A DNA stretch of 33,112 bases from an uncultured Bacilli bacterium (GCA_947588765.1 CANPZG010000015.1:1-33112), one strand, 5' to 3'; shown: positions 19,343 to 24,430, counted from the first letter of the stretch. Numbers and translations: made by a program. The notes: generated from the sequence alone by a model not told the origin.

Positions 19343-19356
19343 CAAATAAATGATAT

Positions 19357-19452
19357 AAAAAGGTGGAGCCATATTGCTATGGCTCCTAAAGAATAAAAAG
19401 GGGTTGACTAGTGTGATACTAGCACCAATTCGCCTTCTCAAGTGAATTGGTG
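19357..19452 (-). ncRNA. Candidate small RNA gene on the minus strand upstream of recG
   Basis: A promoter-like TTGACA-17-TAGTAT (19487-19459, minus) predicts a start at about 19452, which is exactly the first base of hairpin 1, CACCAATTC/GAATTGGTG read from both arms (19423-19431 and 19444-19452). Hairpin 2 is CTAGT/ACTAG (19408-19412 and 19418-19422). A single-stranded linker reads CAACCCCTTTTTATT on the RNA. The last hairpin, GGAGCCATA-loop-TATGGCTCC (19365-19386), is followed on the minus strand by ACCTTTTTAT, a terminator. No open frame of use is present. The hairpin-hairpin-linker-terminator design fits a trans-acting sRNA of about 95 nt. It matches no class I recognise. Confidence 0.55.
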
Positions 19453-19458
19453 ATTAAT

Positions 19459-19487
19459 ATACTAACCGATAAGCCTTATTTTGTCAA
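19459..19487 (-). promoter_or_regulatory. Promoter of the minus-strand candidate small RNA
   Basis: TTGACA (complement of 19482-19487), a 17-bp spacer and TAGTAT (complement of 19459-19464, 4 of 6 matches to TATAAT). It is divergent from the recG promoter. Confidence 0.5.
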
Positions 19488-19494
19488 CAATTTT

Positions 19495-19523
19495 TTGCAA
19501 CTTTTTTAAATTTTTGTTATAAT
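19495..19523 (+). promoter_or_regulatory. recG promoter
   Basis: TTGCAA (19495-19500), a 17-bp spacer and TATAAT (19518-19523), 16 bp before the recG start codon. Confidence 0.75.
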
Positions 19524-19539
19524 TTTTCTAGGAGTAGAT

Positions 19540-21525
19540 ATGAAAATAGAACAACTGAAGGGAATTGGACCTAAAAATCAAGAATTATTAAATAAAATTG
19601 GAATTTTTAATGTTGAAGATTTGTTAACATATTATCCTTATAAATATTTATTTATTAATATTATAAATATTAATGAAGCAAATGAAAATGATACAGTATA
19701 CGTTAAAGGAAATATTGTTACTGTACCTAAAGTTGGATATATTAGAAGAAACTTTAATGTTTTATCTTTTTTAGTAAATATAGATAATACAATTGTAAAT
19801 GTTAGAATATTCAATCGAGCATTTATGAAAAATAATTTAGTAGTTGGTAAATCCATTGTTTTAGTGGGTAAATATAATAAATTAAAAAATACATTTGTTG
19901 CTAGTGATATTAAGTTTAATATTGAAGGTGATAAAATAGAAGCTAAATATCATTTAATCAATGGCTTAAAAGAAAGTGTTTTAGTTAAGGCAATTGATTT
20001 GGCTTTAAAAAGTAACTATAAAGTAGAAGATTTAGTTCCTGATAATCTAAATAAAGAATATAAGTTTATTGATAAAAATAAAGCTATTAATATTATTCAT
20101 CAACCTAATAGTTATGAAGAAATAAAACAAGCTAAATTAAAATTAATATATGAAGAATTATTTAACTATACTTTTAAAATAAATGCTTTAAAAATTAAAA
20201 ATAAAAGAGCCTTAGGCATAAAAAGAGATATTAATAGAGATGAAATAGATGAATTTTTAAGCACTATTCCTTTTAAATTAACTGAAGATCAATTAAATGC
20301 TATTAATGAAATATTAGAAGATTTAGCTACACCGGAAAGAATGAATCGGTTAATTTTAGGGGACGTAGGTTCTGGGAAAACTATTGTTGCTGTTATTGCT
20401 ATTTTAGCCAATTACTTAAGTGGGTACGAATCAGCATTTATGGCTCCAACGGAAATTCTTGCTAAGCAACATTATGATTCTCTAATTAATTATTTCGCGG
20501 GTACTGATATTAAAATTGCTTTACTTACTGGTCATTTAACTAAAAAAGAAAAAGAAAAGATTTATGAAGATTTAAATGAAGGTAAAATTAATTTAGTAAT
20601 TGGGACTCATGCTTTAATAAATGATAATGTTAAATTTAAAAAATTAGGTTTAGTCATCATTGATGAACAACATTTATTTGGCGTTAAACAAAGAAATGCT
20701 TTACAAGAAAAAGGACAAATTGGACCTGATGTATTATATTTATCAGCTACCCCTATCCCAAGAAGTTATGCTTTATGTTTATATGGTGACTTAGATTTAT
20801 CCATGATTAAAACTAAACCAAAGATGCGTAAAGAAATAATAACGATTGTAAAAAAAGAAAATGAAATAAAAGATGTTTTATTTAAAATGCTTGAGGAAAT
20901 AAAAGCAGGTCATCAAGTGTTTATTGTTTCTCCTTTAATTGAAGATAGTGAAGAGTCTAACTTAAATAGTGTTTTAAAATTAAAAGAAAAAATGGATATA
21001 GCCTTTAATTATAAAATAAAAATAGAAATTATTCATGGTAAAATGAAACAAAAAGAAAAAGATGAAATAATGAATGATTTTCTAAAGGGAGAAATAAAAA
21101 TATTAATTTCAACTACTGTAATTGAAGTTGGTATTGATATACCTAACGCCACAATGATGGTTATATTTAATGCGGAACGCTTTGGTTTAGCGGCTCTTCA
21201 CCAATTAAGAGGTAGAGTAGGAAGAAATGATTTACAAAGTTATTGTTACTTAATATCTAATATGGATAATGAACGTTTAAAAGTTATGGAAGAAAGTACT
21301 GATGGTTTTTATATTAGTGAAAAAGATTTTGAACAAAGAGGCCAAGGTGATTTATTTGGGGTTAAACAAAGTGGGGACATTATTTTTAAAATTGCTAATA
21401 TAAGAACTGATAGTAAAATATTATTACAAGCTAGTAAAGATAGCGAAAAGTATTTAAAAAATAAAGAATATGAAAATAGTAAACACTATAAAAATGTTTT
21501 AGCAGAAATAGATTTCTTAGATTAA
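19540..21525 (+). CDS. recG: ATP-dependent DNA helicase RecG
   Basis: This 661-residue protein is close to the usual 680. It remodels stalled replication forks and branch-migrates Holliday junctions. The N-terminal part has the helix-hairpin-helix-like KGIGPKNQELLNKIGIFNVEDLLTYYPYKY and the wedge/OB-fold domain (about 55-150). The helicase motor follows: Walker A GDVGSGKT (about 274-281), MAPTEILAKQH (motif Ia), VIIDEQHLFGVKQR (DEQH box), LSATPIPR (motif III), then STTVIEVGIDIPNATMMVI and QLRGRVGRN (motifs V and VI). The C-terminal part keeps ERLKVMEESTDGFYISEKDFEQRGQGDLFG, the family TRG signature. The ribosome binding site is TAGGAGTAG. It is a single gene flanked by two candidate small RNA genes. 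Confidence 0.97.
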   Translation: MKIEQLKGIGPKNQELLNKIGIFNVEDLLTYYPYKYLFINIININEANENDTVYVKGNIVTVPKVGYIRRNFNVLSFLVNIDNTIVNVRIFNRAFMKNNLVVGKSIVLVGKYNKLKNTFVASDIKFNIEGDKIEAKYHLINGLKESVLVKAIDLALKSNYKVEDLVPDNLNKEYKFIDKNKAINIIHQPNSYEEIKQAKLKLIYEELFNYTFKINALKIKNKRALGIKRDINRDEIDEFLSTIPFKLTEDQLNAINEILEDLATPERMNRLILGDVGSGKTIVAVIAILANYLSGYESAFMAPTEILAKQHYDSLINYFAGTDIKIALLTGHLTKKEKEKIYEDLNEGKINLVIGTHALINDNVKFKKLGLVIIDEQHLFGVKQRNALQEKGQIGPDVLYLSATPIPRSYALCLYGDLDLSMIKTKPKMRKEIITIVKKENEIKDVLFKMLEEIKAGHQVFIVSPLIEDSEESNLNSVLKLKEKMDIAFNYKIKIEIIHGKMKQKEKDEIMNDFLKGEIKILISTTVIEVGIDIPNATMMVIFNAERFGLAALHQLRGRVGRNDLQSYCYLISNMDNERLKVMEESTDGFYISEKDFEQRGQGDLFGVKQSGDIIFKIANIRTDSKILLQASKDSEKYLKNKEYENSKHYKNVLAEIDFLD

Positions 21526-21552
21526 TTTTTTGTAAAAAACTAACAAAAATAA

Positions 21553-21581
21553 TTGACAAAAAAATTAAAACAAGTTATAGT
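21553..21581 (+). promoter_or_regulatory. Promoter of the plus-strand candidate small RNA
   Basis: TTGACA (21553-21558), a 17-bp spacer and TATAGT (21576-21581). There is no coding sequence downstream on this strand before a terminator. Confidence 0.75.
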
Positions 21582-21587
21582 TAAGAT

Positions 21588-21715
21588 AGCATAGGATACA
21601 GTAAATGTATTTTATGCTCTTTAAAACAAGTCTTCGCTTACGATGAAATCGTTAAGACAAAAGTGAGCAAAGACAACCAAAACCCCCTTTGGACCCTTTT
21701 GGGTCCATTATTTTT
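21588..21715 (+). ncRNA. Candidate small RNA gene downstream of recG
   Basis: The predicted transcript is about 128 nt from the promoter at 21553-21581. It opens with a 13-bp hairpin (AGCATAGGATACA at 21588-21600 with TGTATTTTATGCT at 21606-21618, two G-U pairs). The segment GTCTTCGCTTAC (21630-21641) can pair with either of two partners: locally through ATCGTTAAGAC (21648-21658), or with GTGAGCAAAGAC (21663-21674, 10 of 12 positions). An unpaired AACCCCCTTT (21681-21690) precedes the terminator TGGACCC-TTTT-GGGTCCA (21690-21707) and ATTATTTTT. The downstream gene is on the opposite strand, so it is not a leader. It is not recognisable as 6S, SRP, tmRNA or RNase P RNA. Confidence 0.65.
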
Positions 21716-24291: not shown

Positions 24292-24309
24292 TTAATAATA
24301 TATTATAAT
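24281..24309 (+). promoter_or_regulatory. rplJ-rplL promoter overlapping the rplA stop
   Basis: TTGACA (24281-24286), a 17-bp spacer and TATAAT (24304-24309). The -35 hexamer lies inside the last codons of rplA, before its TAA at 24289-24291. It allows rplJL to be transcribed independently of rplKA. Confidence 0.85.
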
Positions 24310-24314
24310 ACGAA

Positions 24315-24415
24315 TTGAAAACCGAAGACAGTAGGCAATTAGTAAGTCCTACCGAGGGAATCTTAATAAAATTATAAAATTTTTAAGCTTCCCGATGCGG
24401 AGGCTTTTAATTTGA
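24315..24415 (+). promoter_or_regulatory. Ribosomal protein L10 leader (L10-L12 autoregulation element)
   Basis: The leader has the conserved ACCGAAGACAGTAGGC (24321-24336) and CCTACCGAGG (24348-24357) strands with a variable loop, the kink-turn hairpin recognised by the L10(L12)4 complex in the Rfam L10_leader family. A second stem, GGGAATCTTAA with TTAAGCTTCCC (24356-24366 and 24383-24393), follows. Excess L10-L12 binding would reduce rplJL expression. The ribosome binding site lies a few bases further on. Confidence 0.9.
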
Positions 24416-24430
24416 TAAGGAGGATTTAAA

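Follow-up and report, generated by a model that had tools for sequence, protein, structure and literature searches.

The closest described counterparts of the RNA genes reported here are the small RNAs (sRNAs) RoxS/RsaE, with FsrA and CsfG, of Bacillus and Staphylococcus, which are about 100 nucleotides long, have housekeeping-type promoters and combine hairpins, an intrinsic terminator and a conserved unpaired C-rich segment. In B. subtilis, RoxS and FsrA have a sponge, RosA, whose G-rich stretches are complementary to the C-rich targeting segment (PMC8216469); in S. aureus, RsaI is reported to have a C-rich region that binds mRNAs and to be a probable, not definitively proven, sponge of other sRNAs (PMC8216469). 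Among type I toxin-antitoxin systems, ZorO-OrzO (PMC3919570) and TimP-TimR (PMC7667032) use an sRNA as the antitoxin. In this report, we describe two RNA genes, sRNA-1 and sRNA-2, in a stretch of 33,112 nucleotides (hereafter the window) that is contig 15 of the 1.27-Mb genome of an uncultured Bacilli bacterium (GCA_947588765.1 CANPZG010000015.1:1-33112). The two genes enclose recG, with sRNA-1 divergent to its left and sRNA-2 behind it on the right. It is near certain that both are real RNA genes, and their transcription and every function discussed below are what we infer from sequence. The reading in which we place about half of our confidence is that they form a trans-acting pair, in which sRNA-2 would act on G-rich messages, including the untranslated regions (UTRs) of peptide genes, and sRNA-1 would serve as its sponge.

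Both candidates share the plan of the RoxS/RsaE group, from the housekeeping-type promoter to the conserved unpaired C-rich segment. The original prediction had described their promoters, stems, C-rich linkers and terminators accurately, and the features are as follows.

19354..19452, minus strand: sRNA-1 (candidate 1), about 95-100 nucleotides, conserved in the order; covariance model R1 matches 19453-19354
19459..19487, minus strand: sRNA-1 promoter, TTGACA (19487-19482), 17-base spacer, TAGTAT (19464-19459)
19425..19450, minus strand: sRNA-1 hairpin 1 (ACCAATTC...GAATTGGT) with a variable loop, from the fold; two pairs doubly changed
19407..19423, minus strand: sRNA-1 hairpin 2 (GCTAGT-ATCAC-ACTAGY), almost invariant, from the fold; outer pair G-C, G-U or A-U
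19388..19406, minus strand: sRNA-1 unpaired C/U-rich CAACCCCTTTTTATTCTTT, the same in 99/101 loci; presumed seed or protein site
19354..19386, minus strand: sRNA-1 intrinsic terminator, stem 19386-19365 followed by a T run; plain loop in the window copy
21553..21581, plus strand: sRNA-2 promoter, TTGACA, 17-base spacer, TATAGT
21588..21715, plus strand: sRNA-2 (candidate 2), about 128 nucleotides, a divergent member of its family
21588..21618, plus strand: sRNA-2 hairpin 1, 13 pairs (family: AGCGTGA...TCACGCT); 6/6 tested pairs doubly changed
21630..21674, plus strand: sRNA-2 hairpin 2 (family: CUCUUACGAU...GUGAGAG); 8/8 tested pairs doubly changed
21674..21690, plus strand: sRNA-2 unpaired seed CAACCAAAACCCCCTTT (family: CAACCAAAACCCCCTGA)
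21690..21715, plus strand: sRNA-2 intrinsic terminator GGACCC-TTTT-GGGTCC (hairpin 21690-21707) and T run, in the version common to the genus subgroup
19540..21525, plus strand: recG (Pfam RecG_wedge, DEAD, Helicase_C, RecG_dom3_C)

The first gene is conserved to a degree that is exceptional for a small RNA, with about 34 nearly invariant bases over some 100 genera. A BLAST search with a 126-base query found sRNA-1 in 181 of 193 family genomes, and a search with covariance model R1 gave hits in 261 of 288 genomes from the order, where every one of those listed belongs to the same family; in a sample of the class, 29 family members stood against two marginal genomes outside the family (E 0.001-0.005). 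Two sets of loci were compared: 101 loci from about 100 genera, which are the better BLAST matches (diverged members exist, for example in G036), and an independent set of 119 exact matches, from genome contigs, to a pattern of upstream sequence only that stops at CAACCCC. Across the 101 loci about 34 of 36 positions are invariant, the AUCAC loop included; the block CTAGTATCACACTAG-Y-CAACCCCTTTTTATTCTTT is constant except at Y in 99 of them, two loci showing an A to G change; and a TTGACA/T-like -35 element, a spacing of 16-17 and a TANTAT-like -10 element are present at every locus. In the second set, TTTTTATTCTTT comes next in 119/119. The terminator of sRNA-1 is conserved along with its promoter. 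Each RNA gene has its own promoter and terminator, as had been predicted, and sRNA-1 is divergent from recG in 65 of the 101 loci; since the other 36 lack recG alongside, it is independent of that gene. A reading of candidate 1 as a recG leader was rejected, because its transcription heads away from recG and recG is often not a neighbor. A protein reading was rejected as well, since the sole frame in sRNA-1 begins at GTG and is just a few codons long; the absence of a useful open reading frame (ORF) was confirmed for both candidates.

Candidate 2 showed no conservation by DNA similarity alone; with covariance model R2, sRNA-2 was found in 156 of the 193 family genomes, and an RNA of its plan stands behind recG in at least 37 of the 63 loci that have the recG end. 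In the class sample it hardly occurs outside the family, the match in G460 (64 bits) being the one strong exception. Compensatory change, proposed beforehand as a check, is strong in this RNA: double changes occur in 14/14 tested pairs (205 cells vs 42 in shuffles), 95.8% of cells in 96 aligned matches pair vs 79.8% in shuffles, and slid partners drop to 25-50%, all on an alignment fitted to model R2, which biases the counts towards the model. In sRNA-1 the stems are paired in 100% of cells and double changes occur in 3/13 pairs, a weak signal because these stems hardly vary. The companion check, on the unpaired C-rich segment, found it to be the most conserved part. The family-wide sRNA-2 seed CAACCAAAACCCCCTGA, in the form CAACCAAAACCCCC(TGA), is nearly invariant; in a subgroup of the window's genus, the window included, CCCCCTTTGG replaces it, and other genus mates have CCCCCTGA with terminators of their own. 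Because mobile-element cassettes begin at CCCCCTGA, we considered whether its invariance is an artefact of these elements, and rejected this, since cassette-free genus mates with their own terminators share it.

Conservation is thus decisive in placing both candidates above chance, beside fold z-scores of -5.2 and -6.5 (0/200 shuffles equally good) and an excess of terminator-like sites in the region (5 observed vs 1.8 expected). Membership in RsaE/RoxS is not supported: sequence and structure differ, the hosts belong to another group of Bacilli, and searches against Rfam (cmscan, E up to 1) gave no match for the candidate 1 region and, for candidate 2, only Histone3 on the terminator, which is below threshold and spurious. 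Fourteen relatives searched against Rfam likewise gave no match to either RNA, so that sRNA-1 and sRNA-2 would be two families new to the RNA catalogues. The unpaired ACCCC(C)TTT motif said to be shared by the two is present in this genome. Family-wide, CAACCCCTTTTTATTCTTT in candidate 1 stands against CAACCAAAACCCCCTGA in candidate 2 in most genera, and the CCCCCTTTGG form that underlies the shared CCCCTTT was met only in the one subgroup of the window's genus; the motif is therefore a local resemblance between two separate seeds.

What links the two RNAs lies in the sRNA-1 terminator. In most genera, unlike in the window copy, its loop holds UCAGGGGG, which is complementary to the seed of sRNA-2. 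Although the terminator stems vary by genus, the apical part contains GGGGG in 82 of the 101 loci and CAGGGGG in 78, with UCA immediately before the G run in 74 of the 82, and a G-rich loop is present in 89/119 of the independent set. Paired with the sRNA-2 seed, the loop forms an unbroken helix that averages 8.8 pairs, vs 6.8 with shuffled flanks and 6.7 with the seed of sRNA-1 itself; the mean duplex energies are -18.3 kcal/mol with the sRNA-2 seed and -10.3 with the sRNA-1 seed. This complementarity suggests a sponge, and sRNA-1 probably titrates sRNA-2 in most genera; the two co-occur in most genomes, and sRNA-2 went undetected in some genomes with the loop. The arrangement recalls RosA, in that a second sRNA shows a G-rich stretch complementary to the C-rich seed of its partner, but in sRNA-1 this stretch sits in the terminator loop and is accompanied by an invariant C-rich tail, a region that RosA lacks. 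RsaI is reported to have the regulator-plus-sponge design proposed for sRNA-1, whose role is predicted, and is unrelated to it in sequence, as judged from the lack of an Rfam match.

Candidate messages for sRNA-2 were found among small peptide genes. Matches to CAGGGGGTTTT across 145 genomes are mostly the antisense of sRNA-2 itself; many of the other sites examined, of the TTCAGGGGGTTTTGG type, lie 28-54 nucleotides upstream of, or directly behind, hydrophobic ORFs of 22-35 amino acids with a Shine-Dalgarno sequence. Such an ORF occurs near 3.6% of random positions and 6.2% of GGGG runs. Presence of the motif was the criterion by which these loci were picked, and several copies from a single genome do not count as independent; on a per-genus tally, the link covers six genera with the full motif. 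The peptides at these sites are given by genome.

G083: MNKLFILNILLILVIIVIVIFN
G088: MNKKCREDIFLLIVLILVLALLILIIKN
G011: MSKKDFLIFGLYILIIILLYIIYKLIFILI
G067: MNKKDNFNFLKQMIIILFLVLLIRVI and MIMTKKDFLIVILLIIIILLILF
G034: MKKDINPVFIIVLFFIIIVLLILY
G012: MKKDCQILFHYIIILLLLVIIIYLLNQQ
G097: peptide of 40 amino acids, shorter motif match

In G012, G034, G067 and G011 (the last through its genus mate G155), 13-16 nucleotides are complementary to a known sRNA-2. The peptides look like type I toxins, and the systems are alike in pairing a small hydrophobic peptide with an sRNA complementary to a UTR of its message; unlike those antitoxins, sRNA-2 is a core gene, mostly single-copy and distant from the peptide genes, its seed has complements in several unrelated peptide families, and the toxin role is putative. 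Tandem or multicopy genes for hydrophobic peptides of 22-40 amino acids, with CAGGGGGTT(TTGG) in the UTR, were also noted at L437, L438, L447, L451 and L502.

These observations lead us to propose a mechanism in which both sRNAs, made from housekeeping-type promoters, would pair in trans through the unpaired C-rich segment ahead of the terminator. For sRNA-2 such pairing is likely: it would use CAACCAAAACCCCCUGA on G-rich message sites (UCAGGGGGUUUUGG), among them UTRs of genes, present in several genera, for small hydrophobic peptides that resemble type I toxins, and would block translation or alter mRNA stability. The UCAGGGGG loop that sRNA-1 carries in most genera would titrate sRNA-2 there, and the invariant C/U-rich tail of sRNA-1 may serve further targets or bind protein. 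Sponge and toxin-like targets are thus well-motivated proposals, and several findings weigh against them. In several nearly complete genomes (G037, G070 and G121) sRNA-2 was not found and sRNA-1 keeps the UCAGGGGG loop; either this loop pairs with something else there, or sRNA-2 may have diverged too far for detection. Loop and seed do not covary: where the loops are altered to CCUUAGGGGGU (L314-L319), the seeds are still CCCCCUGA. The examined sRNA-1 copies of the window's genus lack the UCAGGGGG loop, yet sRNA-2 keeps a CCCCC seed, and therefore both RNAs would act separately there. A convincing sRNA-2 is likewise missing from the matches in G097, G083 and G088, although the site persists at their peptide genes; the window's own genome yielded no peptide target in the parts examined, the window and a few further stretches; and the peptides match no Pfam or NCBIfam family. 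When relatives were searched for exact 12-nucleotide complements of seed 1, most hits proved to be sRNA-1 itself or to fall by chance within genes, and such long exact complements were rejected as conserved targets. A more far-reaching version, in which the pair would be an order-wide core circuit, with a near-invariant sRNA as decoy of a second core sRNA that is the common antitoxin of dispersed, rapidly changing families of type I toxin-like membrane peptides and with mobile elements that insert at the 3' end of this second sRNA and supply terminators, seems doubtful to us. The pair provides an opportunity to test whether one sRNA sponges another in Bacilli and whether a core sRNA controls accessory toxin-like peptides. 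Its hosts are uncultured gut bacteria with reduced genomes, in which regulation has been little explored.

The original prediction had pointed to another mode of action, pairing with Shine-Dalgarno sequences. In a rival account built on it, two unlinked conserved sRNAs of the RsaE/RoxS type would silence many messages in this way, and the G-rich loop would be only a stable terminator loop. C-rich unpaired segments are indeed the targeting regions of RoxS and FsrA (PMC8216469, PMC5419742), and both seeds have more favorable pairing energies at gene starts than within genes. Relative to shuffled seeds, the advantage at start regions is slight for seed 2 (-6.3 vs -5.9 kcal/mol) and absent for seed 1 (-8.0 vs -8.6 kcal/mol). 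The Shine-Dalgarno regions of 406 predicted genes of relatives are chiefly AGGAG/GAGG/AGGTG (GAGG in 167, AGGAG in 143), and AGGGG occurs in 18. The preference known for RoxS/RsaE is therefore without support for seed 1, which may still pair in this way at individual genes, and the persistence of UCA-G5 in the loop while the stems change speaks against a loop that is only structural. We regard this account of the two RNAs as unlikely.

The claim of a pair of trans-acting regulators fares better for sRNA-2, where base pairing is likely, than for sRNA-1, where it is only possible: conservation as extreme as this would also suit an RNA that binds a protein. The sRNA-1 tail could be the binding site of a protein, in a housekeeping ribonucleoprotein or a protein-sequestering RNA, with antisense pairing as a secondary role. 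Some 34 invariant positions are well beyond the needs of a typical antisense seed, no conserved complementary site for the tail turned up in relatives, and divergent sRNA-1 copies retain a short stem with CCAACCCCTTTTTATTC (the second copy of G008) or a close variant (G036), the rest being lost or changed. On the other hand, the C-rich stretch occupies the classical position of an sRNA seed, and we judge protein binding as the primary role to be rather improbable.

The 3' end of sRNA-2 has a further property. In many genomes CCCCCTGAAG is followed by a terminator cassette, then by ttgtttataagggttt and direct repeats; an integrase ORF faces sRNA-2 where examined (Phage_integrase, E 1e-24 to 1e-28, four loci), and identical terminator cassettes are found again in distant genera. 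The 3' end of the gene therefore appears to be a landing site of tyrosine-integrase elements, which would give it a new terminator. The loci for such insertion elements are L286, L292, L295 and L300, downstream of sRNA-2, and L079, L116, L297 and L299. tRNA and tmRNA genes are known chromosomal landing sites, and the sRNA-2 site would join an sRNA gene to them. At the end of contig 37 of the window's own genome (L460:2040-2122), a similar cassette, CCCCCTGAAGGAGCCGAAAGGCTCC, lies within another reading frame, which we take to resemble DUF4186; this suggests a second insertion site for such elements.

Such elements raise a third alternative, that UCAGGGGG(UUUUGG) in loops and peptide UTRs is unrelated to sRNA-2 and is instead a protein signal, or an attachment site of mobile elements at peptide genes. 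Integrase elements use CCCCCTGAAG at sRNA-2 and apparently within another gene, the motif persists in genomes without detectable sRNA-2, including some that bear the loop, and the peptide genes are frequently multicopy. But the peptide sites lack the terminator cassette of the elements and are similarly placed relative to unrelated ORFs, and the match between sRNA-1 loops and sRNA-2 extends past the G run into the UCA/UUCA flank; there is in our view only a small chance that this alternative is right. Finally, we give a negligible probability to the reading that no gene exists and that the promoter-, stem- and terminator-like features arose by chance. Weak promoter matches do abound in such AT-rich DNA (61 observed vs 52 expected), but conservation, synteny and covariation refute that reading.

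Several additional copies and neighbors were noted. Degenerate second copies of sRNA-1 (L463:1184-1276 and L464:1221-1306) keep the stem and CCAACCCCTTTTTATTCTTTTT and have lost hairpin 1 or the loop; tandem pairs about 150 bases apart (L186:5052-5307 and L465:1053-1308) consist of one copy with a GGGGG loop and one without; and the exact sRNA-1 core occurs in two viral-contig records (L282:4324-4343 and L283:8117-8136). Near sRNA-1 in G136 (L453:1970-2010), an inverted repeat has the loop CAGGGGGTTTTTGGTTG, a nearly full complement of the sRNA-2 seed, and may belong to a further decoy RNA. The sRNA-2 match in G460 (L461:1302-1400), from another family, lies on a 3-kb contig with a cassette-like flank and points to transfer or contamination. 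The records that bear the sRNAs are chiefly metagenome-assembled genomes of uncultured Bacilli, Tenericutes and Erysipelotrichaceae, and we infer, in part from an OLE RNA in one relative, that their order is RF39 of GTDB. OLE variants were previously reported in RF39 (PMC11332333), and an OLE RNA adjoins sRNA-1 in G003 (L157:1-545, 339 bits). In the window itself, an L10 ribosomal protein leader is located at 24304-24419, after a perfect TTGACA-17-TATAAT promoter.

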